Shown piece after piece: positions 26,800 through 51,697 of a stretch of DNA of 64,000 nt; position 1 is the first letter of the stretch, and every line of letters begins with the position of its first letter. Location: assembly GCF_901411515.1 (NCBI RefSeq), contig NZ_CABDUX010000001.1, forward strand, positions 1,178,001 through 1,242,000. Direction: 5' to 3'. Position numbers and translations under genes: made by a program. The notes under the pieces are model-generated. The model made no database searches. It was not told where the DNA came from and worked only from the letters and a program-made list of their open reading frames with translations. The DNA is from Raoultibacter phocaeensis. GTDB lineage: Bacteria; Actinomycetota; Coriobacteriia; Coriobacteriales; Eggerthellaceae.

Positions 26800-27241
26800 G
26801 GACATCATCCTTTCTTGTTGTTTCCCGTTATTCCCTCTGCGCCTAGGGTTGGTGCTCGGGCTTCGAGGCCGTGTCCCGGGCTCCCGTAGGCCCACGACCG
26901 TTTAGAAGCCTGCTCGGTCTTCATATCCCATCTCGGCGCTGCGGACGACCGCTCGGTCCGACCGCCCGTATTTAAGCGAGTTCGTTGGAGTAACGTCAAT
27001 CAGCTGTGTGAGGTATTCCCAAAAACAGTGTGGTAGCGTTGAGGTATCGATGAGGTAGGGCGCAATATCCGCACGTCGCAAGCCCATACGAAAAAACGAA
27101 GTGCCCGTGCCGCTTGGCATTTTGAGGTACTATGTACGCAGTCGGCGGTGAGGCGGATGCAATGCGGGCGAAACGGTTGGGTGCCGTTTTTGCCGGACGC
27201 CGTTCGGCGGCAAGGGTGTACGATCCTTGGATGGGAGGATT
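26800..27241. other. Divergent intergenic region (442 bp)
   Basis: Lies between the reductase operon (minus) and its LuxR-type regulator (plus), so it should hold both promoters and any regulator site. It includes GC-rich CCCGGGCTCCCG-type sequence near 26877. No gene, RNA or strong palindrome could be supported. Confidence 0.45.
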
Positions 27242-28693
27242 ATGGTCGAAGCGGCTACCGTGCAGGATGCCCGCCCAATGGGCGCTCTGCCTGCCCCTAC
27301 CTTCGCCTTGCTCGTGTGCGGGCTCGGCCTGTACATGGGATGGCAAACGGTCGGCATTTCTCCCACGCTGTTCCCTCAGCCTCAGATCAGAAGCGCCGGA
27401 GCGCTCGAGGTGGCGAACTATCTGCAAACCGCGTTGTTTCTCGCGTTGCTTCTCGCGCTCTCGTGGTTCGTCCGCAAACGCGGCAGTCTGTTTTCCCGCA
27501 CGTCGATCATCTGCGCAGCAGCGTTGCTCACCTGTGTGTCTACCGCATGCACGTACGTATGCGGCTGGGTGTTCGACCTGCCTGTCGGGGCGGTGCTGGG
27601 TACCGTGTGCGAAGCGTCGAAGGCCGCGTTTCTTTTGCTGTGGGCCGAATGTTTATGCCGGGTGCGTTTTCGCGATACGCTTCTGTGCGTATCCTTGTCG
27701 TATGCGGTAGTGTTCGCGCTGTGCCTGCTGGTGGCGGGCTTGAAGCCCATGCCTGCTCTGATCACGCATTCGGTGCTCCCCTTGCTTTCGGGATGCGCGC
27801 TTCTCGTGCTGCGCAGCGACCGTTCGTTCTACGCGTTGCAGGGCGCTCAGCCGCAAGGAGCGAAAGCCCTGCCCCGCCTGCCGTGGAGACTCTTCCTCGG
27901 CGTGGGGCTTTTCGGCGCGGTTAACCTGTTCGTCAATACCTTTTCCGAATCGAAATCTCCTGCAACCGCCGAGCTGAACACGCTTCTGGCGGGGCTCGCC
28001 GTCTCCCTCTGCATCGCCGCTGTCGCAACGCGTCGCAGCGACAAGTTCGATTTCACGGGTTTGTACCGCATGCTCACGCCGCTCACCATTGCAAGCGTGA
28101 TCCTCGTCCTTACGCTTGAAAGCGGCAATCAGCAGTACGAGGCGTTCGTGATCGGGGTCAGCTGGGTGTTCTTCCGGATATTCAGCTGGACGCTGTGGTG
28201 CAGCATAGCTCTGCGCTCGCATGCTCCGGCTGCCTGCGTTTTTGCAGTCGGGCAGTTTACGCTGACCACGTGCAGCACCGCGGCACAAGTTGTATGCGAT
28301 GCCGTGCTGCCCGTGGCAAACATACCGTTTCCCGTGTTGATATCGGCGATTCTCGCACTCGCCGTATGCACCTCCGCGTTCATCATGAGCGAAAGCGATG
28401 TCAGCCGCTTCTTCGGGAAGCGCAAGGCTTCGAAGAAGAAAGCCGAGGATTCGGAAGAATCGCTTCGGCACTGCATCCGGTGCGCCGCCCAGGAATACGG
28501 GCTGTCGAAGCGCGAAGAGGAGATAGCCGAGCTGGTGATGAAGGACAAGAACAACGCCGTCATCCAAGAGCGACTGTGCATCACCGAAAGTACGCTGCGC
28601 ACGCACTTGCGCAACATGTACGGCAAAACGTCGGTGCACAGCCGCCAAGAACTCATCGGACTGTTGCGCTCGTACCTCGAAGACGACGTCTGA
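27242..28693 (+). CDS. Membrane-anchored LuxR-family regulator
   Basis: 483 residues from ATG 27242, six bases after GGGAGG. About 12 hydrophobic segments occupy residues 15-390, and a LuxR (GerE) helix-turn-helix is at the C terminus ('LSKREEEIAELV', 'CITESTLRTHLRNMYGKT'). This fused form is abundant in Eggerthellaceae, where such genes sit beside respiratory reductases. It is divergent from the FMN/flavoprotein operon, which is its likely target. It probably senses a ligand in the membrane domain, but no ligand can be assigned. Confidence 0.88.
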   Translation: MVEAATVQDARPMGALPAPTFALLVCGLGLYMGWQTVGISPTLFPQPQIRSAGALEVANYLQTALFLALLLALSWFVRKRGSLFSRTSIICAAALLTCVSTACTYVCGWVFDLPVGAVLGTVCEASKAAFLLLWAECLCRVRFRDTLLCVSLSYAVVFALCLLVAGLKPMPALITHSVLPLLSGCALLVLRSDRSFYALQGAQPQGAKALPRLPWRLFLGVGLFGAVNLFVNTFSESKSPATAELNTLLAGLAVSLCIAAVATRRSDKFDFTGLYRMLTPLTIASVILVLTLESGNQQYEAFVIGVSWVFFRIFSWTLWCSIALRSHAPAACVFAVGQFTLTTCSTAAQVVCDAVLPVANIPFPVLISAILALAVCTSAFIMSESDVSRFFGKRKASKKKAEDSEESLRHCIRCAAQEYGLSKREEEIAELVMKDKNNAVIQERLCITESTLRTHLRNMYGKTSVHSRQELIGLLRSYLEDDV

Positions 28694-28806: not shown

Positions 28807-30006
28807 CTACGCCTCCCCAATGCACTCTTCGCCGCGCAGCAGCTCAACCTCGAGCACGTCGCCTTCCTGCCAGCCTTTCTCGCCGATGGGGGAGATGCGC
28901 TGTGCGTTCGAGGTCATGCATTCGACAAGCTCGCCCGCCTTGAAGTTGTGGAAGTGCACCCGATAGCCGTCGTCTGAGCGGGTAAGGTCGCAGCGTCCGA
29001 TGTTGGCCATGATGGGCACGCTGCCCGAGGTCGCATCGGCTTTTGCCGAAACGGTAGGATGCCGATGCACGGGAATGTCGAGGATGCGCGCCGTGATGGC
29101 CTGCAAGCACCATTCGCTTCCGTAATACGCGGCAAGCGTGGGACCGGGCAAGTCAATCACGGGCTTGCCGGCGGCGACCGCCATCATGAGCGGACGTCCC
29201 GGTACGGCGGCGATGTAGTGGTGTACGACGGTGCCGCGCTTCTCGATCATGCGTACGTTGAAATCCTCCTCGCCAATGGCTGACCCGCCGCCTACGACCA
29301 CGGCGTCGGCGACGGCAAGAGCCTCGGTGAACGCGTGCTCGAGCTCGGCAGGATCGTCATAGACGATGGGGAAGATGATGGGCTCGGCGCCGTACTCGAT
29401 GAGCAGGTGCTTGACCATGAGGCTGTTGGTATCGACGTTCTGACCGCGGCGCGGCTTGATGCCGGCGGGAACAAGCTCGCTGCCGGTGGGGATGAACGCG
29501 ACGCGCGGCTTGCGGCGCACCGGCACCATCGTGACGCCGCCCATGGCGAGGGCGGCAAGATCGGTCGGGCGGATGATGCTGCCGGCATCGAGCAGCAGCG
29601 TTCCCTCTTTGAGCGTCGAGCCTGCGGGGCGCACGCCCGAACCCGGTTCCACTTCAACATCATCGTCGAGCACAACCGATCCGTCGGGCTGGATGGCCGC
29701 CTTCTCGATCATGATGACGGCGTCGTACTCGTCGGGAAAATCATCGCCGGTATCGGCGCGCACGTACTCGACGCCGCGCTTCCACGCGCTCGTATCGGGC
29801 AAGCCGTTTGCAAACGCAGCCGATTTGACGGCAATGCCGTCAAACGACGAAGCGCGAACGACGGGCAACGTGTTCGAAGAAACCATGTCGCGAGCGAGCA
29901 CACGTCCGACTGCGTCGTCCAGCACTACCAACTCGGTTTCCCGCATTGGCTCCCACGCCTTGAAGAAATCGCTAAGCGCCTCTTCCCTCGACGGAAACCC
30001 TTCCAT
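28807..30006 (-). CDS. MoeA-like molybdopterin molybdotransferase
   Basis: 399 residues from ATG ('MEGFPSREEALSDFF'); a GTG at 30021 behind AGGAGGAG is an alternative start. MoeA domain order is visible: an N-terminal 'DAVGRVLARDMVS...RASSFDGIAV', the MoCF domain with 'PTGSELVPAG' and 'VVVGGGSAIGEEDFN', and a C-terminal barrel. The usual 'GLPGNPVS' loop reads 'DLPGPTLAAYYG', so this may be a specialised paralogue. It should insert molybdenum or tungsten into adenylylated molybdopterin. It is divergent from the nitrogenase-like operon and shares its promoter region. Confidence 0.8.
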   Translation of the reverse strand: MEGFPSREEALSDFFKAWEPMRETELVVLDDAVGRVLARDMVSSNTLPVVRASSFDGIAVKSAAFANGLPDTSAWKRGVEYVRADTGDDFPDEYDAVIMIEKAAIQPDGSVVLDDDVEVEPGSGVRPAGSTLKEGTLLLDAGSIIRPTDLAALAMGGVTMVPVRRKPRVAFIPTGSELVPAGIKPRRGQNVDTNSLMVKHLLIEYGAEPIIFPIVYDDPAELEHAFTEALAVADAVVVGGGSAIGEEDFNVRMIEKRGTVVHHYIAAVPGRPLMMAVAAGKPVIDLPGPTLAAYYGSEWCLQAITARILDIPVHRHPTVSAKADATSGSVPIMANIGRCDLTRSDDGYRVHFHNFKAGELVECMTSNAQRISPIGEKGWQEGDVLEVELLRGEECIGEA

Positions 30007-30092
30007 GATCTTCTCTCCCACGGCTCCTCCTATCGTCTTGCATGGGTACAACAAGCTTGTTCGCCCTAGAATACTCCAAGTTTGAGAATAAT

Positions 30093-30149
30093 TCATCTTG
30101 AAATATTATACTCATCAAGATATATTATCCTCATAAGGAAATAAGACGG
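30093..30149. promoter_or_regulatory. Tandem 19-bp direct repeats in the moeA/ABC promoter region
   Basis: Three units at 30093-30111, 30112-30130 and 30131-30149 follow the pattern YTCATC--GAWATATTAT; the third is more diverged. The 19-base period places them almost on one face of the helix. They sit directly before the importer operon and upstream of the divergent moeA-like gene. This is a probable operator array for a metal- or substrate-responsive regulator. Confidence 0.6.
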
Positions 30150-30158
30150 GGAAGAGAA

Positions 30159-31229
30159 ATGCCGGTGACGGCTGGAGGTACCGTGGGGGATAAAGTCAAA
30201 CGTTCGGGGTGGAGCGGATTACAAGCCGCTCCGGTGATCGTCATTCTGACGATCGTTCTCGTTGCTGCGGTGCTCATCTCCTTTACGCTCGGTCGGTACG
30301 ATATGACGGTGCTCGATGTGCTCAACGTTGCGGCAAACCAACTGCTCGGCATGAACACAGGTTCCGAATCCACTCACATCACCGTGGTTACCCAGGTCCG
30401 CTTTCCCCGCGTGATCGCCGCGCTCGTAATCGGTGCCGCGCTTGCTGCCGCAGGTGCCAGCTACCAGGGACTCTTTAAGAACCCGATGGTTTCCCCCGAC
30501 CTTTTGGGCGCATCTGCCGGCGCGGGGTTCGGCGCATCGTTTGCGCTTTTGATGGGTGGCAACATGTACGTCGTCCAGCTCTCGGCGTTTGTCTGCGGCA
30601 TCGTGGCGGTGCTGCTCACGTACTTTGTGAGCACAGCGGTAAGCAAAGGCGATTCGATGACGCTGACGCTCGTGCTCACCGGCATGGTGGTGACGGCCTT
30701 GTTCCAGGCGTTCATCACCATGACCAAATACGTTGCCGACCCGGATGACAAACTCCCCTCGATCACGTACTGGCTCATGGGAGGTCTCTCGTCGATGCGG
30801 GTCGAAGATCTGCCCATGCTGCTCGTGCCCGTGGTCGTGGGCATCATACCCATGCTCCTGTTCCGCAATCAGCTCAATGCGCTTTCGTTCGGCGATGAAG
30901 AGGCGCGTGCGCTCGGCGTGAACACGAAGTTCATCAGGGCGCTCTTCATCTTCTGCGCCACGCTCGTCACGGCTGCCTCGGTGGCGGCGGCTGGCATGGT
31001 GGGATGGGTTGGCCTCGTCATACCACACTTGGCGCGCATGATCGTGGGGCCCAACCACAAGGTGCTGCTTCCGGCGTCGCTTCTGCTCGGTGCCCTCTAC
31101 GTGCTCATCATCGACGATCTGTGCCGCTGCTTGTTCGCCATCGAACTGCCTTTGAGCGTGCTCACGGCGATCATCGGCGCACCGTTCTTCATCTATTTGC
31201 TCACGCGGGGAAGGAAGACTTGGACATGA
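30159..31229 (+). CDS. FecCD/BtuC-type ABC importer permease
   Basis: 356 residues with about ten membrane segments. Hallmarks of the family are 'RFPRVIAALVIGAALAAAGASYQ', 'NPMVSPDLLGASAGAGFGA' and 'GWVGLVIPHLARMIVGPNH'. The family imports iron-siderophores, heme, cobalamin or, in the MolBC branch, molybdate. A GTG at 30183 behind GGAGG is an alternative start. It is the first gene of the importer plus nitrogenase-like operon and overlaps the ATPase gene by ATGA. Confidence 0.9.
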   Translation: MPVTAGGTVGDKVKRSGWSGLQAAPVIVILTIVLVAAVLISFTLGRYDMTVLDVLNVAANQLLGMNTGSESTHITVVTQVRFPRVIAALVIGAALAAAGASYQGLFKNPMVSPDLLGASAGAGFGASFALLMGGNMYVVQLSAFVCGIVAVLLTYFVSTAVSKGDSMTLTLVLTGMVVTALFQAFITMTKYVADPDDKLPSITYWLMGGLSSMRVEDLPMLLVPVVVGIIPMLLFRNQLNALSFGDEEARALGVNTKFIRALFIFCATLVTAASVAAAGMVGWVGLVIPHLARMIVGPNHKVLLPASLLLGALYVLIIDDLCRCLFAIELPLSVLTAIIGAPFFIYLLTRGRKTWT

Positions 31230-32098
31230 GGGAATTCGCGCTCGACAACGTAACCTGCGGGTACAAGGACGTGACCGTGCTTTCGAACGTCTCGTTCTCC
31301 ATCGGATCGGGCGAGGCGCTGTGCTTGCTCGGGCCGAACGGCGTGGGCAAGACGACGCTGTTCCGCAGTATGCTCGGGTTTCTGAAGCCCTTCGGCGGCT
31401 CGATCACGCTCGATGGCGATGATATCTCCACGTGGTCGTCGCGTACGCTTGCGAAGAAAATCGGCTATGTGCCCCAGAACCATACGCCGCCGTTTGCCTA
31501 TCCGGTCGTCGATGTGGTGACGATGGGTCGGCTTTCGCGCATCAGCCCGATATCCTCGCCGTCGGGCCACGATGTGGACAAAGCTCACGAGTGCCTCGAG
31601 CGGCTCGGCATCAGCCACTTGGCCGACAAGCTCTACACCCAAGTGAGCGGCGGCGAGCGCCAGATGGTGCTCATCGCCCGCGCGCTTGCGCAGGAACCCG
31701 AAGTGCTCGTGATGGACGAGCCTACGGCGAGCCTCGATTACGGCAATCAGGTCAAGGTGCTTCGCCAGATATCGCATCTGGTGAAAGAGGGCATCTCGGT
31801 CATCATGACCACCCATTTCCCCGATCATGCCTTTCTGTGCGCAACGAAAGTCGGTCTCATCACGCGTGAGTGGGTGCGTTTCGGCACGCCTGACGAGGTG
31901 GTTACCGAGGATTCGCTCAAGGAGACCTACGGCGTCGATGTGCGCATCGTAAAAGACCACACCTGCAAGTGCGGTACGCTCAAGGGCTGCGTTCCCATTG
32001 TGGAATTCGCGGCCGAGAACAAGGACGCCGCTCGGGCGATACCGATCGGCGAAGAAGGCATCCCGCGGTCGCAGCGTCACGTGGCCGTGTGTGCATAG
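31226..32098 (+). CDS. ABC importer ATPase with cysteine-rich tail
   Basis: 290 residues. Walker A 'GPNGVGKTT', Q-loop 'YVPQNHTPP', signature 'VSGGERQ' and Walker B 'VLVMDE' are intact, as in FecE/BtuD. After the usual end of the fold there are about 45 extra residues that contain 'CKCGTLKGC', followed by a segment ending 'RHVAVCA'. That tail is not standard for the family and could bind a metal. It pairs with the upstream permease. Confidence 0.88.
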   Translation: MREFALDNVTCGYKDVTVLSNVSFSIGSGEALCLLGPNGVGKTTLFRSMLGFLKPFGGSITLDGDDISTWSSRTLAKKIGYVPQNHTPPFAYPVVDVVTMGRLSRISPISSPSGHDVDKAHECLERLGISHLADKLYTQVSGGERQMVLIARALAQEPEVLVMDEPTASLDYGNQVKVLRQISHLVKEGISVIMTTHFPDHAFLCATKVGLITREWVRFGTPDEVVTEDSLKETYGVDVRIVKDHTCKCGTLKGCVPIVEFAAENKDAARAIPIGEEGIPRSQRHVAVCA

Positions 32099-32170: not shown

Positions 32171-33292
32171 ATGAAACGCAAACTATGGGCGCTCGCTTTG
32201 ATGTGCGTGCTGGCGCTGCCGTTGGTCGCTTGTTCGGGCGGTACCGATGCGCAGAAGCCCGCCGAAGACCAGAGCGAACAACAACAACCTGTCGAGCAGC
32301 AGGCAACCGAGCGCGAGATCACCGACATGGCGGGTCGCACGGTTACCATTCCGACCGAAGTGAACTCGGTGTACTGCGCCGTTCCCACCGGCGAGGCTAT
32401 GGTGGCAACGCTCTCGCCCGACAAGATCATCGGCTGGGTGAACGAGCCGAGCGCCGCGGCTATGGAGTACCTGCCCGAAAACCTCGCCTCGATGCCGGTT
32501 ATCGGCGGCTGGATGGGCCAGCAGGTCACGGCCAATATGGAAGACATCATCACGCTTGATCCCGACATCATCATTTACGTGGGAACCGACGGCACGCTCG
32601 GCAACGACGATGTGCCCGACCAGATTCAGAAGGAGACGGGCATCCCGGTTGTCTGCGCATCGAGTGCGCTCGAGCGTACGCCCGAGGTGTACCGTACGCT
32701 CGGCGATTGGATCGGCGAGGCCGACCGCGGCGAAGAGCTGGCGACGTACTACGAGATAAAGTTCGCCGAAGCGCTTGAGAAGATCGATGCGATTCCCGAA
32801 TCCGAGCGTCCGACGGTGTACTACGCCGAGAACTCCGATGGCCTCGCTACCGATCCGACCGGATCGTCGCACACCGAGGTGCTCGACTATTGCAAGGTGA
32901 AAAACGTGGCCGATGTCGAGATGAAGTCGGGCCAGGGCCGCACGGAGGTGTCGATCGAGCAGGTGATCGCATGGAACCCCGAACTCATCCTGTGCCATTC
33001 GGGCTTCGTGCTTGCCGATGACATCATGAACAATCCCCAGTGGGCCGATATCCAGGCTGTAAAGGACGGCGAAGTGTACACGACGCCCGCCGTTCCGTTC
33101 AACTGGTTCGATCGCCCGCCGAACGTCATGCGCCTTTTGGGCATCGAGTGGTTCGCGACCGTGTGCTATCCCGATATCGACATCGATATCAACCAGGAAG
33201 TGAAGGATTTTTACAAGCTGTTCTACAAGGTCGATCTGACCGATGCGCAGCTCGAAAAGCTCATGAACCAGAATCAGCTGAGCTTCGAGTAG
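32171..33292 (+). CDS. ABC importer substrate-binding lipoprotein (BtuF/FecB/MolA class)
   Basis: 373 residues from ATG behind AAAGGA. The lipobox ends at Cys21 ('LPLVACSGG'). The class III binding fold starts 'REITDMAGRTVTIP' and closes 'NWFDRPPNVMRLLGIEWFATV'. The last motif resembles binding proteins for oxyanions or metal complexes, but the ligand cannot be fixed from sequence. It delivers the ligand to the two preceding gene products. The nitrogenase-like genes follow within about ten bases. Confidence 0.88.
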   Translation: MKRKLWALALMCVLALPLVACSGGTDAQKPAEDQSEQQQPVEQQATEREITDMAGRTVTIPTEVNSVYCAVPTGEAMVATLSPDKIIGWVNEPSAAAMEYLPENLASMPVIGGWMGQQVTANMEDIITLDPDIIIYVGTDGTLGNDDVPDQIQKETGIPVVCASSALERTPEVYRTLGDWIGEADRGEELATYYEIKFAEALEKIDAIPESERPTVYYAENSDGLATDPTGSSHTEVLDYCKVKNVADVEMKSGQGRTEVSIEQVIAWNPELILCHSGFVLADDIMNNPQWADIQAVKDGEVYTTPAVPFNWFDRPPNVMRLLGIEWFATVCYPDIDIDINQEVKDFYKLFYKVDLTDAQLEKLMNQNQLSFE

Positions 33293-33302
33293 AAGCCGCG
33301 TG

Positions 33303-34853
33303 ATGGAATCTACTCCAGTGCCAGAAGATGCAGTGCCCGTTGCGGCACCGCATCCGGTCGATCCGCCGTCCGCGGGGCCGTTTTTCGGCGGGCCTGCGGA
33401 CGGGTCGGACGCACGCCCCGATGAAGCAGCATGCCAGGCGAGACGGCTCATGGCCATTCCCGGCGTGTTCTACGGCGGCGGATGTTCATACATGGCCTGC
33501 CGCGGCCTCATGATGAGCGGCATCGAAGACGTGCTGCTCATCACGCACGGCCCGGTGGGCTGCGCGTACTTCTCGGGCATCAACGGCTACCGAGGTCCGG
33601 CCGACGCGCCGCGCCCCCCGTTCATCGCTCGAACGTTCTCGACCCATATGAGCGAATCCGACGTGATCTTCGGGGGAGAGGGCAAGCTCGCTCGTGCCAT
33701 CGACGAAGCGGTCGAACGCTACGCGCCCGCTGCCATCGCCGTTTGCGCGACGTGCCCTGTCGGCCTTATCGGCGACGATATCGGGCAGGTTGCGCGCGAA
33801 GCGGAAGAGCGGCACGGCATCGAGGTGCTGCCGCTTTCGTGCGAGGGCTTCAAGGCCGAACCCGGGTGGCTGCACGGTGGCAAGCAGATTCTCGACAACT
33901 GGGTCGGGCGGGAAAGCCGCGGCACGGGAGCCTTCCCTATCCATTTCATGAGCGAAGCGTGCGGCGATGACCGAGCCCGCGAAATGAAGGAGCTTTTCGA
34001 GCGCATCGGCTACGATGTGGTGTGCTCGCTCATGGGCATCACGACGTACCGCGACATCGTGCGCAGCCATGAGGCGCAGTTGATCGTACTCGATTCAGGC
34101 AAGGCGATCGACGAAGTGCCGCTGCTGTATCAGCGCCGATACGGCTCGGGCTTCATGCGCGTGAACCTTACGGGAATGGGCGCTATCGCAGCATCGCTCA
34201 GGGAGATGGCGGCGTTCTTCGGCGACAAGGTGCTTATGCGTCAGACCGAGCAGGTGATCGAAGAAGAGTTCGCGCGCATCGAAGCGGAGCGCACGCGATG
34301 GCTCGGCGAATTCGGGGGTGTGCGTGCAGCGGTATTCGAAGACATATTCCGCAGCAACGATTTTGCGGTGCTCTCAAGCGAGCTTGGGATGGACGTCATC
34401 ATGGTCGCTCAGGATTACGAGACCGAGGTGTACACCGAAGAAGGGTACACCGTGCATGTACCCTGCGCGCTTGTCGGCGGGCTTGATGCCAGGCGCAAAG
34501 AAGCGTTCGGCATCGATGCGGCTTTTGTCGTGTCGAGGTTGCCAGGGTGTCCCGAGCTCGATTGCCCGGGCCGTGAATTCGCATGGCTTCGCGTGCAGAT
34601 GAGCCGCTCGCAGGTGAGCGATCTGCTCGCTGAGCTTGCTCCCGATCTGTGCTTTGCGGGTATCGAAGAGCGTTTCGGATACGATGGGGCGCGTATTCGT
34701 TCCGAAAAGTTCCTTTCCGACGAACGCGGGACCGACTACATGGGGTTCGACGGACTTGCCCGCTACGCCAACGATGTGGCGCAGGCGCGCGACCTGTCGC
34801 ATTGGCTGCTCGAGCGTCCGGCATGGTGGAAGGAGCAGGTCTGTGATGCGTGA
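33303..34853 (+). CDS. NifD-like nitrogenase-superfamily component 1, alpha-type
   Basis: 516 residues. Family blocks are 'YGGGCSYMACRG', 'ITHGPVGCAYFSG', 'VIFGGEGKLARAIDEA', 'CPVGLIGDDIGQV' and 'LSCEGFKAEPG'. Cysteines at about 61, 87 and 151 match NifD Cys62, Cys88 and Cys154, the P-cluster ligands. The segment aligned with NifD 'CYRSMNY' (Cys275) reads 'DSGKAIDEVP'. The one aligned with His442 reads 'TDYMGFDGLARYAND'. So the FeMo-cofactor ligands are absent. It is probably a reductase of unknown substrate that works with the next two genes. GTG 33300 is an alternative start. Confidence 0.85.
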   Translation: MESTPVPEDAVPVAAPHPVDPPSAGPFFGGPADGSDARPDEAACQARRLMAIPGVFYGGGCSYMACRGLMMSGIEDVLLITHGPVGCAYFSGINGYRGPADAPRPPFIARTFSTHMSESDVIFGGEGKLARAIDEAVERYAPAAIAVCATCPVGLIGDDIGQVAREAEERHGIEVLPLSCEGFKAEPGWLHGGKQILDNWVGRESRGTGAFPIHFMSEACGDDRAREMKELFERIGYDVVCSLMGITTYRDIVRSHEAQLIVLDSGKAIDEVPLLYQRRYGSGFMRVNLTGMGAIAASLREMAAFFGDKVLMRQTEQVIEEEFARIEAERTRWLGEFGGVRAAVFEDIFRSNDFAVLSSELGMDVIMVAQDYETEVYTEEGYTVHVPCALVGGLDARRKEAFGIDAAFVVSRLPGCPELDCPGREFAWLRVQMSRSQVSDLLAELAPDLCFAGIEERFGYDGARIRSEKFLSDERGTDYMGFDGLARYANDVAQARDLSHWLLERPAWWKEQVCDA

Positions 34854-36426
34854 TGATTCGACACCATCCGGTGTGCTTGTTACAGGTGAGTCGGGTCAGT
34901 GCGCCTGCGTATCGGGCGGCGAGGCGACGTTTCGCGAAGTCCGCTCGCTGTGCGTCGATCCGCTCAATCCGTGCGCGCCCATCGGCGCGATGTACGCTGC
35001 GTTCGGTGTGCACGGCGGGTTGCCACTCTCGCACGGCGCTTCGGGTTGCTGCCGCTTTCAGCGGATGGAGCTTGCGAAGCATTTCCAGAAAACCGTGCAT
35101 GTGCCCTCGACGCTCTTGCGCGACCGGGCCGCCATGTTCGGTGGGGAAGCCGAGGTGCAAGAAGCTGTCGAAAACGTATTTCGCCTGTACGATCCCGAGG
35201 TGCTCGTGATCAGCACCACGTGTCTTTCCGAGACGATCGGCGATGACATGGGCGGTATCGTCGAGCGCCTTAAGGTGCCGCCGAACAAAGCGGTGGTATG
35301 GGCGTCGACGCCGGGATATGCCGGTTCGCAGCTTGCTGGCTTCGATGCGACCGTTGCGGCGCTCATTCGCCGCTTTGACGGAAGTGCCGAGCGAACACCA
35401 ACTTCAACGAACCGAGCTGCTGTAGTGCAATCGGAACCTGTCAAGGAGGCGGGTTCTGCCCCGGCCGACATGTTTGTGCGCGAGTGCGATTCGCCCGAAG
35501 CAGGCCCGGCTGGTCGAGCGAGCGATACTACATCGGGCGGCTTGTTGTGCGAAAGCCGTCTCTGCCTGCTTCCCGGGTGGATGAATCCCTGCGATGTCGG
35601 CATTGCAGTCTCCTTGGCCGAGGCGCTATTCGACGAAGTGACGGTGCTCCCCGATGTGCGGGACGTGTTCGACCGCAAAACGCCCGATGATCCTACGCGC
35701 TACGCGCCCGGAGGTACGCCTCGCGAGGCGATCGAGGGCATCGGTTCGTGCGCATGCGCTGTGGCTCTCGGGCGTGAGGCGACGGAGGAAAGCGTGCGTG
35801 CGGTGTGCGAAGCAGCTCCGTCTGCCGATGTGGTGCAGCTGCCTCAACCCATAGGCATCGCGGCGACCGACCGCCTGATCGCCGCGCTTGCTGCGAGAGC
35901 GGATCGTCCCGTGCCCGCATGGATAGCCGAGGAGCGCACCCGTCTCATCGATTGCCTCATGCAGGTCGCCGACCAGATCTACGGCAAGCGGGTGCTCGTA
36001 TGCTGCGATGCCGATCTCGCCTGCGCGGTCGCTTCGTTTGCGGTCGACGTCGGCATGGTACCGAGCTGCATCGCGGTGGGCGATGCGCTGCCCGATTTCG
36101 AAGAGCACGTGCGTACCGAGGTGGCGCTTCCGGGAGCGTGCGTTGTGCTAGCGGGCGCCGATCGGCTTGCCGTCGAAGAGCACGTAGCCGCGCACCCGAT
36201 CGATATCGTGCTCGGCGATACGCGCAACAAGCGGCTCGCTGCACGCGCGGGCGTGCCGCTCGTGCGCATTGGATTCCCCGTGGTCGACCGCCCGCTTTCG
36301 TATACCGAGCCGATTGCGGGATACCCAGGCGCGCTTTCGCTGCTTCGGCGCATCGTCGAGGCATTCTGCGAACAGGAGGAGCGAGGCAAAGCGCCCGAGG
36401 ACCTCTCGATCTCGCGGTATTTCTGA
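34846..36426 (+). CDS. NifK-like nitrogenase-superfamily component 1, beta-type
   Basis: 526 residues from ATG 34846, overlapping the NifD-like stop by eight bases. '[19 protein letters not shown]', '[12 protein letters not shown]', '[12 protein letters not shown]' and '[13 protein letters not shown]' are NifK-type blocks. Cysteines at about 43, 68 and 126 have spacings of 25 and 58, identical to NifK Cys70, Cys95 and Cys153. A Ser/Pro-rich linker (about residues 180-230) divides the two halves. It should form an alpha2beta2 complex with the upstream protein and hold a P-cluster-like centre between them. Confidence 0.85.
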
Positions 36427-36587: not shown

Positions 36588-37448
36588 ATGAGCATGGGGG
36601 TTAACCCGAGGCAGATCGCTTTTTACGGAAAGGGCGGCATCGGCAAATCGACCACGAGCCAAAACATCGCAGCGGCCCTCGGCGAGGCGGGCCGCGCGCT
36701 CCTTGTGGTCGGCTGCGACCCCAAAGCCGATTGCACCTCGCTTCTTACGGGCGAGCTCTTTCAGGAAACCGTGCTCGAGAAGGTTCGCTCCCAATCGCGC
36801 AACGCCGCGCCCAACGCGCCTGTTGAGGGCATCGTGCATACGGGATTCGCCGACATCGCGTGCGTGGAATCGGGTGGCCCCGAGCCGGGCGTGGGCTGTG
36901 CGGGGCGCGGAATCATCTGCGCCATCGAACTGATCGAGCGGCAGGGCATCATCCACGACGGTCTCGATTACGTGTTCTACGACGTGCTTGGCGATGTGGT
37001 GTGTGGCGGTTTCGCCATGCCTATCCGCGAGGGCAAGGCGCAGGAGATATACCTCGTCACGAGTGGTGAGATGATGTCGCTCTATGCTGCGAACAATATT
37101 GCGACGGGCATTCTCAAGTTTGCCGCTTCGGGAAAGACGCGCCTCGGCGGCATCATCTGCAACTGCCGCAACGTCGCCGGCGAGGTCGAGCTGGTGCGCA
37201 CCTTCGCAGACGAGCTCGGCAGCTCGGTTGTCGGCGTAATCCCGCGCGACAACGTGGTGCAGGCAAGCGAGCTCAACAAACAGACGGTCATCCAGTATGC
37301 GCCCGAAAGCGCGCAGGCCGAAGCGTACCGCGCCCTCGCCCATGCGATCGAGGCGAACGAGCGCTTCGCCGTTCCGACGCCGCTTTCCCGCGAGCGGTTG
37401 CGCGAGATGGCTCTTTCCATCGCTGAAGAGAGCGTGCGGCTTTCGTGA
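36588..37448 (+). CDS. NifH-like reductase Fe-protein
   Basis: 286 residues behind AAGGAGG. P-loop 'GKGGIGKST' is at about 15-22. 'GCDPKADCT' is the usual NifH switch region. Cluster cysteines are at about 104 ('GVGCAGRG') and 139 ('GDVVCGGF'), 35 apart as in NifH Cys97 and Cys132. It is predicted to be a homodimer with one bridging [4Fe-4S] cluster that passes electrons with ATP hydrolysis to the DK-like complex. Its distance from the K-like gene is about 160 bases, so it may have extra regulation. Confidence 0.9.
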
Positions 37449-38325: not shown

Positions 38326-39867
38326 TTACGCTTCGGGCTGCTGCGGCTCCCATGCCTCCACGTAGTCGATGAGTTCCTGCTGCTTGTGTATGTCGGTTTT
38401 CTGGTAGATCTTTTCGATATGGGTGCGGGCTGTGTTTTTCGCGATGTGCAGGTCGCGCGCGACGATGTTGAGCGTGCGGCCCCGCGCGAGAAACGCGAGC
38501 ACCTCTTCCTCGCGTGGGGTAAGCCCGCATTCTTCGGCGATGCCGCAGCATTTCTCTTCGAGCGTTGCCGCCGGTTCCTGTTCCGTTTCGGTGGCAGGCT
38601 CGGGCGCTTCGACCTTCTTGCTCGATTTCTTCATAGAGAGGATCGACGAAATGGCGCTTTCAGGTAGCACCATGAACGCGATGATGACCAGGCAGAGGAT
38701 CGCGATGAGCGCGACCGAGCCGATGCGTATATCGCCCGTTGCCACCATCGGACTCAGTACGGCGCTCAGCACGTATCCGGCGGCCATGCCGATGAACGTG
38801 TACGCCACACCGATTCCGAACACATACGGTACGGCTTGGCGACCGCCGCGGCGGGCGATCTCGCTGAACAGCACCCACGAGAGAATGTCGAACAATTCGT
38901 AGCCGATGCTGATGGCGAGTACCGAGAAGTAATTGCGGTGCTCGAAAATCAAGGCGATCGCGATCAGCCCGCCGATCATGATGGGAAGCGAAAGCCGGTA
39001 CACGAACGAGACGTTCATCCGATCTTTCAGCAGAAACGAGATGCCGAGGAATATCGCGCCTACGATGACGAGGCTGAACGCGCCGCTGCCGCCGACCATA
39101 GCGAACGGATCGTCGCCGCTTACGGGAAACGCGTCGAACGCGCGGACCAGAAACGAGAACACCATGATCGAAATCATGAGCTTCGCCGAGTCTTTGTTCA
39201 GGCGCACGCGCTCGCGGGGCCTGCCGTTCGCATCGGTGGGCAGCACGGTTTCTTCCAGATCCTCTTCGACGACGCCTTCGGGAAGACCGGTTTTCCATTC
39301 GATCTTGCAGCGCTTGCATTCGAGGACAAGAAGCGCAAGCGAGAGAATCGGCAGCACGACGAACGTAAGTTGGTTATCGGTCGAGGACATGGCGAGCACG
39401 ATGCCCGTAACGATGGCTGCGGCGGGTGCGCAGGTGAGCGAGAAGAACAGGTTCTGAGCCGCGAACCGCTCACCCCACGTAACCTGAAGCAAGCCCGCGC
39501 CCGCTCCGCCGATGATCACGCCGAGCATCAGCAGGGTGGGGGAATCGAGCCATGCGGCGGCCGGTATGCACACCGCTGATCCGAGGATGAGTCCCGTCAT
39601 AACATCGGTCAGCTTCTCGTGCATCCGCGGAAGGCTGCCGACGAAACGCGTGAGCACGAGTGCGGTGAGCGCCGCCGATGCGGCTCCGGCAAGGAGAAAC
39701 ACCCAATCGGTGCGCGAACCCACGCTTGCGATCGATGCGGAAAGGCATGAGACGATCCATGCCCTGCACAGACCGAAGCCTACGATGACCAGCACGTAGT
39801 CGACGATGTTTCCCTTTACGTCCCACAGTCCTTTATCGGCGGTGGGCTTCCCTCGCAGCTCGTCCAT
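38326..39867 (-). CDS. Membrane-anchored LuxR-family regulator
   Basis: 513 residues from ATG 39867 with GGGGAG upstream. About 12 membrane segments in two blocks are separated by a charged loop (residues about 205-245). The C terminus is a LuxR helix-turn-helix ('LTPREEEVLAFLARGRTLN', 'LHIAKNTARTHIEKIYQKT'). It is divergent from the reductase and cytochrome pair and is the likely regulator of it. Ligand unknown. Confidence 0.88.
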   Translation of the reverse strand: MDELRGKPTADKGLWDVKGNIVDYVLVIVGFGLCRAWIVSCLSASIASVGSRTDWVFLLAGAASAALTALVLTRFVGSLPRMHEKLTDVMTGLILGSAVCIPAAAWLDSPTLLMLGVIIGGAGAGLLQVTWGERFAAQNLFFSLTCAPAAAIVTGIVLAMSSTDNQLTFVVLPILSLALLVLECKRCKIEWKTGLPEGVVEEDLEETVLPTDANGRPRERVRLNKDSAKLMISIMVFSFLVRAFDAFPVSGDDPFAMVGGSGAFSLVIVGAIFLGISFLLKDRMNVSFVYRLSLPIMIGGLIAIALIFEHRNYFSVLAISIGYELFDILSWVLFSEIARRGGRQAVPYVFGIGVAYTFIGMAAGYVLSAVLSPMVATGDIRIGSVALIAILCLVIIAFMVLPESAISSILSMKKSSKKVEAPEPATETEQEPAATLEEKCCGIAEECGLTPREEEVLAFLARGRTLNIVARDLHIAKNTARTHIEKIYQKTDIHKQQELIDYVEAWEPQQPEA

Positions 39868-40204
39868 GTGCTCCCCTGTTGTACCGTGTATGCGAAAAGC
39901 CGTCCCTGCGGGAATGCGGGTGCGAAAAGGCACCTGATTTCCGCGACTCCCTTCGGCTTCTTCCCAGAATCATAACGGATACCGAGATTTTATCACTCGG
40001 ATCATCGATCCGATAGGCCTATAAAACCGCTGATCAGTGAGCGGAATAAGAAAAAATAAAAAATCACATTCGTCATGCGGTGCGCAATCGGGCACCGCTT
40101 CCTACAATTGCGCCATCGCCGGGCAGATCGTCTGACAAGGAGGAGGACGTCGTCGCGAGGGAGCGACGATCATGAAGAGTCTGCCCGTGGAACAAGGAGG
40201 AACT
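39868..40204. promoter_or_regulatory. Divergent promoter region with two palindromes (337 bp)
   Basis: Between the LuxR gene and the reductase. Palindromes CGGATCATCGATCCG at 39998-40012 and CCGCTGATCAGTGAGCGG at 40027-40044 flank a TATAAAA-like element at about 40019. A second -10-like TACAAT lies near 40104. The two palindromes are about 30 bases apart and are candidate LuxR-protein sites. Confidence 0.5.
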
Positions 40205-46168: not shown

Positions 46169-46479
46169 CGATGCCCTTTCATGCGATCTGCCTGCGCGAC
46201 GGCTCTCTGGGAACAAGCTGGCGCGGTCTGTCTCGGAGTACTCTTTCATGCACTATGCCAGCGCAATGGCTCTCTGCCGGCAGCGGTCTGGTTCTGTCTG
46301 CGCAGCGACCGAGCGCAATCAGCGATTTCGTTTTCATCCGTTGCAGGCCGCCTATGATGTTGACCGCGGGCAGCCAACGGGGCACAGTATAGAATACGCA
46401 ATGGTAGAATGGTAAAACGTTTAGCGAACCGATACTTTTGCTCGAAACAGTCCGAGATGTCCGGAGACGCGGTGATTCA
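46169..46479. other. Divergent intergenic region between mscL and menF (311 bp)
   Basis: Probably contains both promoters. A TATAGAAT-like -10 element for menF is at about 46387. Two loosely similar copies of a GGCTCTCTG-to-GGTCTGTCT/GGTTCTGTCT stretch (about 46200 and 46268) are seen. No gene found. Confidence 0.4.
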
Positions 46480-47892
46480 GTGACGAAAATCTATACGTAT
46501 ACGCAACCCGTCGACGCCGATATCGTCGATGCGTTCTGTGTGCTCCAAAAAGGCTTTACCGATCAATTCGTGTTCTACGACAAAGCGAGAAAGGCGCGGT
46601 TTCTGGGACTTGGCCGGTGCATTGCGCTGCCGAGTTTGCGGGAGGTCGAATACGAGCTGCAAGGCGATGGTGCCGAGCCGCCGATCCTCTTCTCGTTCAA
46701 TCGGTTCGATGCCGACAACCCCAAGCCCGCTGACGAGCTGTTCGCATCGTTTCCGCGGCTGTCGCTCATGCTTCCCGAAGTGGTGCTCATCGAAAACGAG
46801 CATGGGAAGTTTTTGCAGATCAACAGCTTGGGGCCTGTGTATGCGGGTCGGGTTGCTCGATTCTCGCGACACATCGAGGAAGCGAAGCCGCGCACCTGCA
46901 CGACGATCCCGTTTACCCTCGAGCGCGATTCGCGCGAGACGTGGGCGCAGGCAGTGACCGAGGGACTTTCCGCGATCGAAGCCGGCAGGGTGGATAAGGT
47001 GGTGCTGTCGAGGCGGCAGAAGATTGTGGCGGCGCACCCGTTCTCTTCGAAAGATCTGCTCGTGAACCTCATCGATGGGCCAGCGCGGGGCACCGTGCTT
47101 CTGTACCGGTACGGCGATGTGTTCTTCTGCGGTTGCACGCCCGAGCTGCTCGTGCGCAAAAACGGCCCGTCGGTCGAGAGCATGTGCCTGGCGGGAACCA
47201 CCTCCGTCGGCGCAAGCGAGCAAGAGCGCCAACGCTTGGCCTCGGAGCTTCTGCGCGACGGGAAAAACCTCCAAGAGCACGCCTACGTGGTCGATTTCAT
47301 CCGCGAGGTATTCAGGCGAAACTGCCACGATGTCGAAATTCCCCGTGATCCGGGCATCCTTGCGCTCCAGCACGTCCAGCACCTCTACACGCCTGCGACG
47401 GCTCAGGTGCTCGAAGGCAAAACGCTCATGGGCCTCATGTCCGAACTGCATCCCACTCCTGCACTGTCGGGTACGCCTGTCGGCGAAGCGCTCATGCTGA
47501 TCCGGCAGATCGAGGCGTACAACCGCGGGTTCTTCGGCGGCGCGGCGGGATATGTGGACGGCGACGGCAACGGCGAGTTCACCGTTGCGCTGCGCACGGG
47601 CGTGTTCGATGGCGAGATCGGGTGGGTGTACGCCGGATGCGGCATCGTGGCGGGAAGCGCTGCCGATGATGAGTACGACGAGATCGACATGAAACTCAAG
47701 ACCATCCTGAGCGCGTTTGATGGGGGCAGCCGTGCGGCCGATGCGCTCGATGGAGAAGGCGGCGAAGGTGCCGGGGTGAACTGCGACGCGCTCGATGGCG
47801 ACGAGAACGGAGCTGCCGGGAGCGAAAACGCACCTGGTGTACCCCGCGGCGGCGAGCGTCAACCGAGCACGAGGGGAGGTGCCGATGCCTGA
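46480..47892 (+). CDS. menF: Isochorismate synthase MenF
   Basis: 470 residues from GTG 46480. The chorismate-binding domain covers about residues 150-420 ('VDKVVLSRRQKIVAA', 'LMSELHPTPALSGTPVGEA', 'FGGAAGYVDGDGNGEFTVALR', 'YAGCGIVAGSAADDEYDE'). It isomerises chorismate to isochorismate, the first step of menaquinone synthesis. The last 50 residues are an acidic, Gly-rich tail outside the fold. Its stop overlaps the menD start by eight bases. It could be confused with a salicylate or siderophore enzyme, but the men neighbours settle the role. Confidence 0.92.
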   Translation: MTKIYTYTQPVDADIVDAFCVLQKGFTDQFVFYDKARKARFLGLGRCIALPSLREVEYELQGDGAEPPILFSFNRFDADNPKPADELFASFPRLSLMLPEVVLIENEHGKFLQINSLGPVYAGRVARFSRHIEEAKPRTCTTIPFTLERDSRETWAQAVTEGLSAIEAGRVDKVVLSRRQKIVAAHPFSSKDLLVNLIDGPARGTVLLYRYGDVFFCGCTPELLVRKNGPSVESMCLAGTTSVGASEQERQRLASELLRDGKNLQEHAYVVDFIREVFRRNCHDVEIPRDPGILALQHVQHLYTPATAQVLEGKTLMGLMSELHPTPALSGTPVGEALMLIRQIEAYNRGFFGGAAGYVDGDGNGEFTVALRTGVFDGEIGWVYAGCGIVAGSAADDEYDEIDMKLKTILSAFDGGSRAADALDGEGGEGAGVNCDALDGDENGAAGSENAPGVPRGGERQPSTRGGADA

Positions 47893-49777
47893 TTGCACCG
47901 ACACGCCCCGTGCATCTGCGCTGTTCCTTTCCGCGTTTTTCGACGAACTCGCCTGCGCTGGGGTGCGCGATGTGGTGGTGAGTTCCGGATCGCGCTCGAC
48001 GCCGCTTGCCATGGTTGCCCACGAAAGCAGCCTGAACCTGTACGTGGACATCGATGAGCGCGGAGCGGCGTTCTTTGCGCTGGGGCTTGCGAAGGCGTCG
48101 GGGAGGCCGGTGTGTATCATCTGCACGTCGGGGACGGCGGTAGCCAACTACTACCCGGCGGTGCTCGAAGCGGAATCGTCGCGCGTGCCGCTGATCGTGC
48201 TTTCGGGCGATAGGCCGCCGCGCCTGCAGAACCTCGGAGCTCCGCAAACCTGCGATCAGCTCAAAGCGTACGGAGACCATGTACGCCACTTCCAGCAGAT
48301 GCCGCTTCCGAGCGCCGAGCCGCGCGACATCGCGTTCGCGCGTCAGATGGCGAAGACCGCGTTCTTCAAGGCGGCGGGTTTTCCCGCGCAAAAGCGCGAC
48401 GGCGGCGAGCCCTTTTACGGATGTGCCGGAAACGCGGGGCCCGTGCACGTGAACTTCCCCTTCGATGAGCCGCTCAAACCCGATCTTTCGGTTAGCGGGT
48501 TGTTTACGGTTGGTCGAACCCGGGCGAAAATCGGCGACCGCGGCATGGTTGCCGAGACCTCGCTGGCCGACGATCAGACAGAGCGCATCATCGCAACGAT
48601 CGAAGGCAAACGGACGGTCGCGCTCGTGGGCGAAGGCACGTGTTTCAGCCGCGCCGATGCGCAAGCGCTCCTCGATTGGGCGCACCGCTTTTCGATTCCG
48701 CTTCTTGCCGATCCGCTCAGCGGAATGCGCTCCTTAGACGACACGCTGGTGATCGACGCATACGACAGCATATTCGCACACGGCGAACAGCCGCGTATCG
48801 AGTGCGTGATCCGCTTCGGCCGCTACCCCGTTTCGAAAAGCTGCTTTTCGTCGGTGTGCTCGGGCGCGGCCACGCAGGGGGTGCAGAAAGCATCGGCTGC
48901 AAATGCGGACGCATCGGGCGTGTCGGAGTCGAGTGTGGCACCCGACGTACGCGATCTTCCCGATGGTGGCGAGCGTCCTGTGCAGATCGTCGTCGATGCA
49001 GTGGAAACACGCGATTTCAACGCAGCGACCGATCTGTTCGTTCGCTGCGATCCCCTAGCCTTCGTCAACGCGATGCGAAGGGCTGCTCGAGACGTCCTTG
49101 TCGATGACGTGCGGGAAGCGAGTGCTCGCGCATGGGAGGCGTGCAACGATGCGGCTCGTGTACGTACCGAACGCGCCCTCGCTGCGCATCCGTCCGACGA
49201 GGCCGCCGTTGTCGCAAAAGCGCTCGAGCTCGCGCCTGACGGCTCGCTCGTGTTCGCTGCAAACTCGATGTCCGTCCGTCTGATCGATGCGGTGTACCTC
49301 AAATCGAACAAGCGCCTTACCGTGTTGTGCAACCGCGGGCTGAACGGCATCGACGGAACGGTTTCGTCGGCTCTGGGAGCCGCCCAGCTGTTTGCGCAGA
49401 CCACGTTTATTACGGGCGATCTCACGATGCTGCACGACCTCAACGCGCTCGCCTTGCAGCGCGAGCTCATCGAGCACCACGGCGGAAGCGATGCACCGAG
49501 CATCGTCATCGTCTTGCTCAACAACCGGGGCGGCGGCATTTTCGATACCCTGCCGCAGAAATCGGAAGAACCGTACTTCGAGCGGCTGTTCCTTACGCCG
49601 CACTCCGTCGATTTTGCGCAGGCGACACAGGCGTTCGGCGTACCGCACGCGCTCGCCAGCACGACAGACGAGTTCGAGCTGGCCTACGAGACGATGCGGG
49701 GGACTCCGGGCATAACCCTGATCGAGGTTCCGTTCGCGCTTGACGGTTTCAGGGAGCGGTTCGGGCGGTGCCGCTAG
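47885..49777 (+). CDS. menD: SEPHCHC synthase MenD (thiamine-diphosphate enzyme)
   Basis: 630 residues behind GGGGAGG. 'GVRDVVVSSGSRSTPLAM' and 'DERGAAFFALGLAKASGRPV' are typical of MenD. The C-terminal ThDP region includes 'NRGLNGIDGTVSSALGAA' and 'TGDLTMLHDLNAL'. It joins isochorismate and 2-oxoglutarate. It is longer than E. coli MenD (556) partly because of a low-complexity Ala/Ser stretch at about residues 325-360. Confidence 0.94.
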   Translation: MPDCTDTPRASALFLSAFFDELACAGVRDVVVSSGSRSTPLAMVAHESSLNLYVDIDERGAAFFALGLAKASGRPVCIICTSGTAVANYYPAVLEAESSRVPLIVLSGDRPPRLQNLGAPQTCDQLKAYGDHVRHFQQMPLPSAEPRDIAFARQMAKTAFFKAAGFPAQKRDGGEPFYGCAGNAGPVHVNFPFDEPLKPDLSVSGLFTVGRTRAKIGDRGMVAETSLADDQTERIIATIEGKRTVALVGEGTCFSRADAQALLDWAHRFSIPLLADPLSGMRSLDDTLVIDAYDSIFAHGEQPRIECVIRFGRYPVSKSCFSSVCSGAATQGVQKASAANADASGVSESSVAPDVRDLPDGGERPVQIVVDAVETRDFNAATDLFVRCDPLAFVNAMRRAARDVLVDDVREASARAWEACNDAARVRTERALAAHPSDEAAVVAKALELAPDGSLVFAANSMSVRLIDAVYLKSNKRLTVLCNRGLNGIDGTVSSALGAAQLFAQTTFITGDLTMLHDLNALALQRELIEHHGGSDAPSIVIVLLNNRGGGIFDTLPQKSEEPYFERLFLTPHSVDFAQATQAFGVPHALASTTDEFELAYETMRGTPGITLIEVPFALDGFRERFGRCR

Positions 49778-49843
49778 CATGGCAGGTGCGCGGGAAAGCC
49801 GCTTCGTACGTACATCCGCACGCCGAATCGAGGTGATGCGCGT

Positions 49844-50689
49844 ATGGTAGATGTGCGGGAAACCTACTTCGTATACGGGGGGATACGCTATCACGTGGTC
49901 GAGTGGGGCGATCCCGATGCTTTGCCCGTCGTGCTGTTGCACGGTTTCGCCCAGAGCGTGGCCACGTGGAGCGTCGTCGCCCCCTTGCTTGCGGCCAAAC
50001 GCCGCGTCATAGCCCTCGACTTCGTAGGTCACGGGAAAAGCGATAAGCCCGATGATCCGACCGTCTACGAGATGGATGCGGTGCTCGACGCGCTCTTCGC
50101 CTTCCTCCGCGATCGCTTCAAGCGCAAGGTGGCGCTTGTCGGCTACTCGATGGGGGGCCGCATCGCGCTTTCCTTCGCTTGCAGGTATCCGACCAAAGTC
50201 TCGATGCTCGTGCTCGAAAGCGCAGGGCTGGGGCCGAAAACAGCCCAGCAGCATGCAGCTATGCAGCATCGCGATGCGGAGATGATCGAGCGGCTGCTTG
50301 CCTGTGACATCGCATCGTTCATGGACTGGTGGGAAGGGTTTTCGCTCTTCGAATCCCAGAAGCATCTGCCCGAAACCGTGCGAGAGCGCGTGCGCGCCGA
50401 GCGGGTGGCAAACGATTCCAAGGCGCTTGCTTTGACGGTGCGCGGTACAGGTCAGCACGCCATGGTCGATTTTTCGGAGAAAATCGGCCGCCTTCCCATG
50501 CCGATTTTGTACATTGCGGGAATTCTTGACCGAAAATACCTCAAAATAGCGGAGAATCTTGCCCATGGAGAGAACGTCTCATGCGTGCTGCTCAATGCGG
50601 GGCACAACACCCACCTCGAAGATCCCGAAACGTTCGCCGCGCAGGTGAGCATGTTTTTGGACAAACAGGCAAAGCGCGCGGGCCGTTAG
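49844..50689 (+). CDS. menH: Alpha/beta hydrolase, probable SHCHC synthase MenH
   Basis: 281 residues. Alpha/beta-hydrolase features: 'LLHGFAQSVATW' oxyanion region, nucleophile elbow 'GYSMGG', Asp in 'GILDRKY' and His in 'NAGHNTHLE'. Between menD and menB it most likely eliminates pyruvate from the MenD product to give SHCHC. The family is broad, so the role rests mainly on gene position. There is no signal peptide. Confidence 0.85.
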   Translation: MVDVRETYFVYGGIRYHVVEWGDPDALPVVLLHGFAQSVATWSVVAPLLAAKRRVIALDFVGHGKSDKPDDPTVYEMDAVLDALFAFLRDRFKRKVALVGYSMGGRIALSFACRYPTKVSMLVLESAGLGPKTAQQHAAMQHRDAEMIERLLACDIASFMDWWEGFSLFESQKHLPETVRERVRAERVANDSKALALTVRGTGQHAMVDFSEKIGRLPMPILYIAGILDRKYLKIAENLAHGENVSCVLLNAGHNTHLEDPETFAAQVSMFLDKQAKRAGR

Positions 50690-50782
50690 CGCATTCGCTC
50701 GGGTATGCGAATCGCTGCGCTCGCGGGGCCGAACACGTGAGACACGGGATGCCGATCGGCACGTCCGACGGCATGAGGAAGG

Positions 50783-51628: not shown

Positions 51629-51697
51629 GAGTCGGCGGCGGTGGGCCGCCATCCTTACGGAAGCGCGTATTCTCGATGTGAGACCGGAAGCGAGCGC

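Follow-up and report, generated by a model that had tools for sequence, protein, structure and literature searches.

A nitrogenase-like D-K-H gene set of Raoultibacter phocaeensis with P-cluster ligands, a remodelled cofactor cavity and a neighbouring MolA-related importer and MoeA

Described relatives and the Raoultibacter locus

The genes analysed here lie in a 64,000-nucleotide stretch of Raoultibacter phocaeensis DNA (contig NZ_CABDUX010000001.1; the whole stretch is hereafter the window) and code for a NifD-like subunit (D), a NifK-like subunit (K) and a NifH-like Fe protein (H). Their closest described relatives are the molybdenum (Mo) nitrogenases NifDK of the clostridial/coriobacterial type (Clostridium pasteurianum Cp1), which provide the best sequence and fold matches and share the six P-cluster cysteines, Ser188 and a NifH partner. 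They differ in that the window clade (the window proteins and their orthologues) has replaced Cys275, His442, His195, Arg96, Lys426 and most contacts of the iron-molybdenum cofactor (FeMo-co), has no NifB or NifEN, and is encoded in another operon. The same ligand pattern, in which the six P-cluster cysteines are present and the FeMo-co ligands absent, has been on record since 2012 for the “yellow” clades of nitrogenase-like proteins, and that work also noted nitrogenase-like genes next to ABC transporters (PMC3464626). There the proteins were classed as relatives of NifE/NifN and placed outside conventional nitrogenase, whereas the window clade groups with NifDK, and a link to MoeA and DUF364 is not mentioned there (PMC3464626). 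The Group IV sulfur-compound reductases MarHDK and IsrHDK have the NifHDK architecture and a non-N2 substrate. They differ from the window set in that Mar combines a P-cluster with an [Fe8S9C] cluster held by Cys270 and a relocated His (PMC12552129), that Isr keeps one D cysteine (PMC11423573), and that both have a radical S-adenosylmethionine (SAM) partner. The dark-operative protochlorophyllide oxidoreductase (DPOR; BchLNB) is likewise NifH-driven and devoid of FeMo-co, but it carries a single 4Fe-4S cluster with an Asp ligand and shows low similarity. Compact pairs of about 400 residues (Desulfitobacterium Dhaf_1539/1540 and the Methanocorpusculum type; loci L033-L038 and L126-L127) share with the window a FecCD-type importer, NifH, a D-K-like pair and often MoeA and DUF364; they have one K-side cysteine, only 12-19% identity to the window pair, and form a separate lineage. 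Finally, the Haemophilus influenzae molybdate/tungstate importer MolBCA is a type II importer like that of the window, and the window's binding protein is a distant homologue of MolA.

The window genome is that of a Raoultibacter species (3.86 Mb, 99% complete) whose nearest relative is Raoultibacter timonensis (79% identity in D). D and K match Pfam Oxidored_nitro at 6e-60 and 1e-83, and H matches Fer4_NifH at 4e-108; chance similarity to nitrogenase is ruled out by the profile scores. In the PDB, D matches NifD at 1.6e-70 and K matches NifK at 9e-75, the closest solved structures being the MoFe proteins 9p1x and C. pasteurianum for D, and C. pasteurianum and 9p1x for K. NifD and NifK are the top NCBIfam models for D and K, yet both subunits score below the curated cut-offs (234 vs 653 bits and 231 vs 427 bits, respectively). 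H lies above the nifH cut-off (402 vs 394 bits) and keeps the P-loop and the two cluster cysteines of NifH; its score calls for caution when diazotrophy is deduced from NifH scores. Note that residues ~183-237 of K are a window-specific low-complexity insert, shorter or missing in the orthologues and not modelled by AlphaFold2.

P-cluster ligands and the rebuilt cofactor cavity

D was aligned with NifD of Acetobacterium, Coriobacteriia and Azotobacter vinelandii, and for K the NifK sequences from these organisms served in the same way. The A. vinelandii NifD reference sequence matched at 16 of 18 landmark positions; the mismatched positions 231 and 353 were left unused. The initial annotation of this DNA had paired K Cys43, Cys68 and Cys126 with NifK Cys70, Cys95 and Cys153, and the alignment agrees in frame, numbering and spacing (25 + 58 residues in both proteins). 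Its pairing of D Cys61, Cys87 and Cys151 with NifD Cys62, Cys88 and Cys154 is borne out with close spacings (26 + 64 vs 26 + 66). The six cysteines and K Ser161 are invariant across all orthologues examined, while in alignment the K subunits of Group IV and of the compact nitrogenase-like types have no equivalent of Ser188. AlphaFold2 models of D and K, made from 5-6 sequences, are weak (predicted local distance difference test scores of 62 and 59) precisely around the cysteines and poor in the cavity too. Only the fold class is readable from them, and at this level Foldseek ranked Cp1 NifD and NifK first.

The FeMo-co ligands are replaced. Cys275, whose segment had been reported as lost, aligns to Ser265 of D. 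The motif first taken for the His442 segment (DYMGFDG) belongs to that of His451 (PYHGFDG in A. vinelandii), and His442 aligns to Leu471 within EKFLSDERG; the claimed loss of both ligands survives this correction. All orthologues have Ser at the Cys275 position and Leu or Thr at that of His442 (Thr in Acetobacterium). The changes common to all of them are H195W, C275S, R277K, S278A, G356D, F381Y, W444D, D445E and Y446R, with further replacements of Val70 by Leu, Arg96 by Asn/Ser, Leu358 by Phe, Glu380 by Asp and Lys426 by Glu/Gly; Arg359 of the NifD shell is kept. The replaced NifD residues line FeMo-co in the A. vinelandii structure. Among seven D orthologues (window, R. timonensis, three contigs of metagenome-assembled genomes (MAGs), genome G126 and Acetobacterium paludosum), 155 alignment columns are invariant, 65 of them the same as in NifD and 42 fixed differences, many in the FeMo-co shell. 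The same pocket replacements are found across two phyla. Clade-specific invariant cysteines occur at D positions 241 and 450, and His214 is clade-wide. Between the window and R. timonensis the ratio of nonsynonymous to synonymous substitution rates (dN/dS) amounts to 0.15 in D, 0.18 in K and 0.08 in H. Since the rebuilt pocket is common to the seven orthologues and dN/dS in D and K is 0.15-0.18, the loss of the cofactor site is, as read from the alignments, not decay but the mark of a pocket that selection maintains for another purpose. A pseudogene is contradicted by dN/dS.

The window genome has no NifB above cut-off and, apart from D-K, no PF00148 pair (NifEN or another NifDK), so that the established pathway to a FeMo-co-type cofactor or an L-cluster is missing. 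Plain nitrogen fixation is ruled out, both the FeMo-co ligands and the assembly genes being missing. D-K-H is very probably a FeMo-co-free reductase of P-cluster type driven by its NifH-like partner. The initial annotation had foreseen an alpha2beta2 enzyme with a P-cluster-like centre and a different or no second cofactor; the NifHDK architecture, the full P-cluster ligand set, the missing FeMo-co ligands and the purifying selection support this view in part; the cluster type, the meeting of the six cysteines at a D-K interface and the heterotetramer keep the standing of predictions.

Maximum-likelihood trees computed with a mixture model recover the seven members as a single group (support 100/100) on a long stem branch. 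D groups with NifD at 96/99, or at 90/91 with wider sampling, where its nested position next to NifD of clostridia and Coriobacteriia has support of 100/99, and K groups with NifK at 98/98. The joined D+K tree unites NifDK and the clade at 89/97 and nests the clade inside NifDK at 90/96, and Group IV is set apart by a long branch (100/99-100/100). The H tree is uninformative, as Fe proteins of nitrogenases and of Group IV interleave in it. By these trees the clade sits with Mo-nitrogenase NifDK, apart from Group IV, and probably inside NifDK. Approximately unbiased (AU) tests weigh against taking this topology as settled: with D alone they retain NifD as a clade without the window clade (p=0.059) and a grouping of the window clade with Group IV (p=0.111), the grouping with NifE having p=0.033, and with D+K they give p=0.155 for NifDK alone and p=0.067 for the window clade with NifEN. 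Membership of Group IV disagrees, besides the tree position, with the lack of a Cys275 equivalent and of a radical SAM gene in the operon. A NifEN scaffold disagrees with NifE keeping Cys275 and with trees that put the clade with NifDK, the AU p values of only 0.033-0.067 notwithstanding. Group V (DPOR and chlorophyllide oxidoreductase) disagrees with weak BchN/BchB profile scores and with the presence of all K cysteines. Descent from Mo-NifDK is the best reading and a likely one, short of proof.

The clade is rare. It occurs in 5 of 138 Eggerthellaceae genomes, the window's own included, and in 1 of 40 genomes of the Acetobacterium family; no further member was found in 296 Actinomycetota genomes, in 391 from the class to which Acetobacterium belongs, or in 398 class-mates. 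Contig L060, which bears the label “uncultured Bacilli” but has an importer and a D nearly identical to those of an Eggerthellaceae MAG, is probably misbinned.

The operon and MoeA-importer units elsewhere

The operon context, which the initial annotation left unused, is the best clue to function. Three genes of a BtuCDF-type importer stand directly upstream of D-K-H in a translationally tight arrangement, and a MoeA-like gene diverges from them (Table 1). R. timonensis and two Eggerthellaceae MAGs have the identical order MoeA, permease, ATPase, binding protein, D, K, H; that of A. paludosum reads permease, ATPase, binding protein, methyltransferase, D, K, H, DUF364, MoeA. In a profile comparison the binding protein hits MolA (HI1472) at 1.3e-23; molybdate and tungstate are ligands of MolA (PMC4031551). 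The window MoeA is the second of its genome (31% identity to the other one) and scores below the curated values of the NCBIfam MoeA models. Aligned to Escherichia coli MoeA, it keeps the active-site Asp, Thr, Glu and Asp; judged from its domains and this alignment, it has the molybdopterin-binding fold and the active-site acidic residues of a MoeA molybdotransferase. Regulators with a LuxR/GerE carboxyl-terminal domain are encoded at 27227-28693, 38326-39933 and 62748-63944, two of which flank the operon; that at 38326-39933 also adjoins the operon in R. timonensis.

Table 1. Coordinates of the D-K-H genes, of aligned ligand and pocket codons, and of neighbouring features in the window
Feature	Position	Strand	Basis or remark
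NifD-like subunit (D)	33303..34853	+	ATG at 33303; Pfam/NCBIfam, PDB matches, alignment
D Cys61 codon (NifD Cys62, P-cluster)	33483..33485	+	alignment
D Cys87 codon (NifD Cys88, P-cluster)	33561..33563	+	alignment
D Cys151 codon (NifD Cys154, P-cluster)	33753..33755	+	alignment
D Trp189 codon (NifD His195 position)	33867..33869	+	alignment
D Ser265 codon (NifD Cys275, FeMo-co ligand position)	34095..34097	+	alignment
D Leu471 codon (NifD His442, FeMo-co ligand position)	34713..34715	+	alignment
NifK-like subunit (K)	34846..36426	+	ATG at 34846; 8-base overlap with D; Pfam/NCBIfam, PDB matches, alignment
K Cys43 codon (NifK Cys70)	34972..34974	+	alignment
K Cys68 codon (NifK Cys95)	35047..35049	+	alignment
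K Cys126 codon (NifK Cys153)	35221..35223	+	alignment
K Ser161 codon (NifK Ser188, redox-dependent P-cluster ligand)	35326..35328	+	alignment
NifH-like Fe protein (H)	36588..37448	+	profiles; Cys104/Cys139 (= NifH Cys97/132) and P-loop present
MoeA-like molybdenum-insertion protein	28807..30096	-	Pfam MoeA_N and MoCF_biosynth; start probably ~30006; divergent from importer
AT-rich inverted repeat GAATAATTCATCTTGAAATATTATACT	30086..30112		divergent MoeA/importer promoter; kept in R. timonensis (L058) and a Gordonibacter MAG (L059)
FecCD/BtuC-type importer permease	30159..31229	+	Pfam FecCD 2e-86
Importer ATPase	31226..32098	+	Pfam ABC_tran; 4-base overlap with permease
Lipoprotein substrate-binding protein, Peripla_BP_2	32171..33292	+	homologous to MolA HI1472

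A second, compact nitrogenase-like pair, with one K cysteine, is found in other Eggerthellaceae and in A. paludosum (contig C50, loci L126-L127). The compact pairs cluster with the same importer type and NifH, in five cases with MoeA (L033, L034, L035, L038, L126) and in several with DUF364. The clusters L033, L034, L035, L038 and L126-L127 also hold a CRP-family regulator, and some of them have a radical SAM gene resembling BioB/HydE; in L034 MoeA overlaps the nitrogenase-like gene, which suggests translational coupling. MoeA of the window type (75-81% identity) stands with DUF364 and the importer, without nitrogenase-like genes, in four genomes (L141, L142, L150, L152), and with the importer only in a fifth (L143), at a contig end with no DUF364 on the contig. 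These five loci likely represent an unnamed uptake and insertion module for Mo or tungsten (W) in Eggerthellaceae. Because it is found without any nitrogenase-like gene, the MoeA-importer(-DUF364) unit is, on gene content, the core, and the reductase an add-on attached from two nitrogenase-like lineages. In one relative (L149:9160-10379) an NFL-type MoeA is split into two frames by a frameshift or an assembly error.

A proposed role and its alternatives

DUF364 neighbourhoods elsewhere contain tungstate, molybdate and vanadium transport (PMC2954201), and Gordonibacter, of the same family, has the largest known molybdoproteome, with 73 genes (PMC6147048). These observations and the MolA homology suggest a role in Mo or W acquisition or cofactor loading, which is put forward tentatively. 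The explanation that best accounts for the whole locus, and which falls somewhat short of an even chance, is that of an ATP-driven reductase of Mo-nitrogenase descent working in a Mo/W acquisition module. Built on what the sequences supply, namely the ligands, the rebuilt pocket and its conservation, the missing NifB and NifEN and the gene content of the operon, it would run as follows. The MolA-related type II importer would bring in an oxyanion or metal complex. The H dimer, with one 4Fe-4S cluster, would hydrolyse ATP and, as in every relative characterised so far, pass low-potential electrons to the P-cluster-like centre of a D-K heterotetramer, which would reduce something bound in the D cavity, the putative active site. 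Devoid of FeMo-co, this cavity is predicted to be a polar, charged pocket in which acidic, basic and aromatic side chains (Asp264-Ser265-x-Lys267, Asp347, Arg350, Asp371-Tyr372, Asp473-Glu474-Arg475 and Trp189) take the place of the FeMo-co shell and would accommodate a substrate or a small metal species. The candidate substrate is a Mo/W species or the pterin acceptor: the metal would be reduced or released, or the acceptor prepared, and the dedicated MoeA would then insert the metal. In its most specific form, doubtful at present, the rebuilt cavity would bind Mo/W-pterin or the oxyanion and make of D-K a station in the metabolism of the molybdenum cofactor, derived from nitrogenase and powered by its P-cluster. 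An enzyme with molybdenum in its own cluster would then have come to handle the metal on behalf of others, a role that the unrelated compact lineage would have reached separately.

Several points weigh against the Mo/W proposal. MoeA normally inserts molybdate without any reductase, and one orthologue locus (G126, L063) has no MoeA within reach of the cluster. In the PDB the binding protein is matched best by 4pag, which is uncharacterised, and further matches with this fold are binding proteins of siderophore and nickel type. The AlphaFold2 models are too weak for viewing the cavity or the D-K interface.

The remodelled cavity is also compatible with D-K reducing an organic or tetrapyrrole-like compound, such as a corrinoid or haem, that the importer brings in, as DPOR and CfbCD, whose cavity has no complex cofactor, reduce tetrapyrroles; among the many models hit by the permease and ATPase, those for BtuC/corrinoid score highest. 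However, no riboswitch, cobalamin ones included, was found near the operons, tetrapyrrole genes occur in no cluster, and profile scores do not put the clade with BchNB or CfbD. This alternative, which leaves the recurrent MoeA and DUF364 linkage unexplained, is considered unlikely.

A nitrogenase-powered siderophore reductase, freeing metal from an imported ferric or other siderophore next to a MoeA present for another reason, would explain the FecBCD-type importer with its siderophore-type binding protein. Its likelihood is rather low: ferric siderophores require no ATP-driven low-potential reductase, and the MoeA linkage recurs in two unrelated nitrogenase-like types. The AT-rich inverted repeat between MoeA and the importer could be bound by a metal regulator, but a regulon search found a single such site in the window genome, unlike a Fur regulon. 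Other nitrogenase-like genes adjoin ABC transporters as well (PMC3464626), in keeping with such an enzyme.

It is quite improbable that D has retained a second iron-sulfur cofactor by means of ligands at new positions. In methylthio-alkane reductase, MarD His429 lies in another loop and was missed by sequence comparison (PMC12552129), and the invariant Cys241, Cys450 and His214 of the clade could be ligands of this kind. Yet Cys275, here Ser, is kept in Mar (PMC12552129), in NifE and in all Group IV sequences aligned, the residues around the cavity have turned acidic and basic, and the genome has no NifB above cut-off and the window-type operons no radical SAM gene. A functionless, decaying nitrogenase, for which the missing assembly genes and the two lost cofactor ligands would speak, is hardly conceivable given dN/dS of 0.08-0.18, identical replacements in two phyla and a conserved operon.

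In the open-access papers searched, no link of the clade or of any nitrogenase-like genes to MoeA or DUF364 was found. The clade and its MoeA link look new, the ligand pattern having been known since 2012, and the Mo/W proposal points to a task not previously ascribed to the nitrogenase machinery. The nitrogenase-like enzymes known so far have their branches outside nitrogenase and figure in the debate on its origin. The window clade appears to be the reverse case, a Mo-nitrogenase that kept the P-cluster and its reductase, gave up the cofactor and gained a new pocket; if true, it would be a natural experiment on P-cluster chemistry without FeMo-co and on cavity adaptation. With two lineages tied to the MoeA-importer unit, many orphan nitrogenase-like operons of gut and sediment anaerobes would for the first time have a function that can be tested.

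Away from the D-K-H locus, the window carries at 11278-21743 genes coding for a phosphonate binding protein, PhnI and an amidohydrolase, which form a carbon-phosphorus lyase (phn) operon in a gut actinobacterium. At 46438-54589, consecutive menaquinone genes (chorismate-binding enzyme, MenD-type, hydrolase, MenB-type) end in one open reading frame fusing an AMP-binding ligase (MenE-like) with an enolase-superfamily domain (MenC-like).

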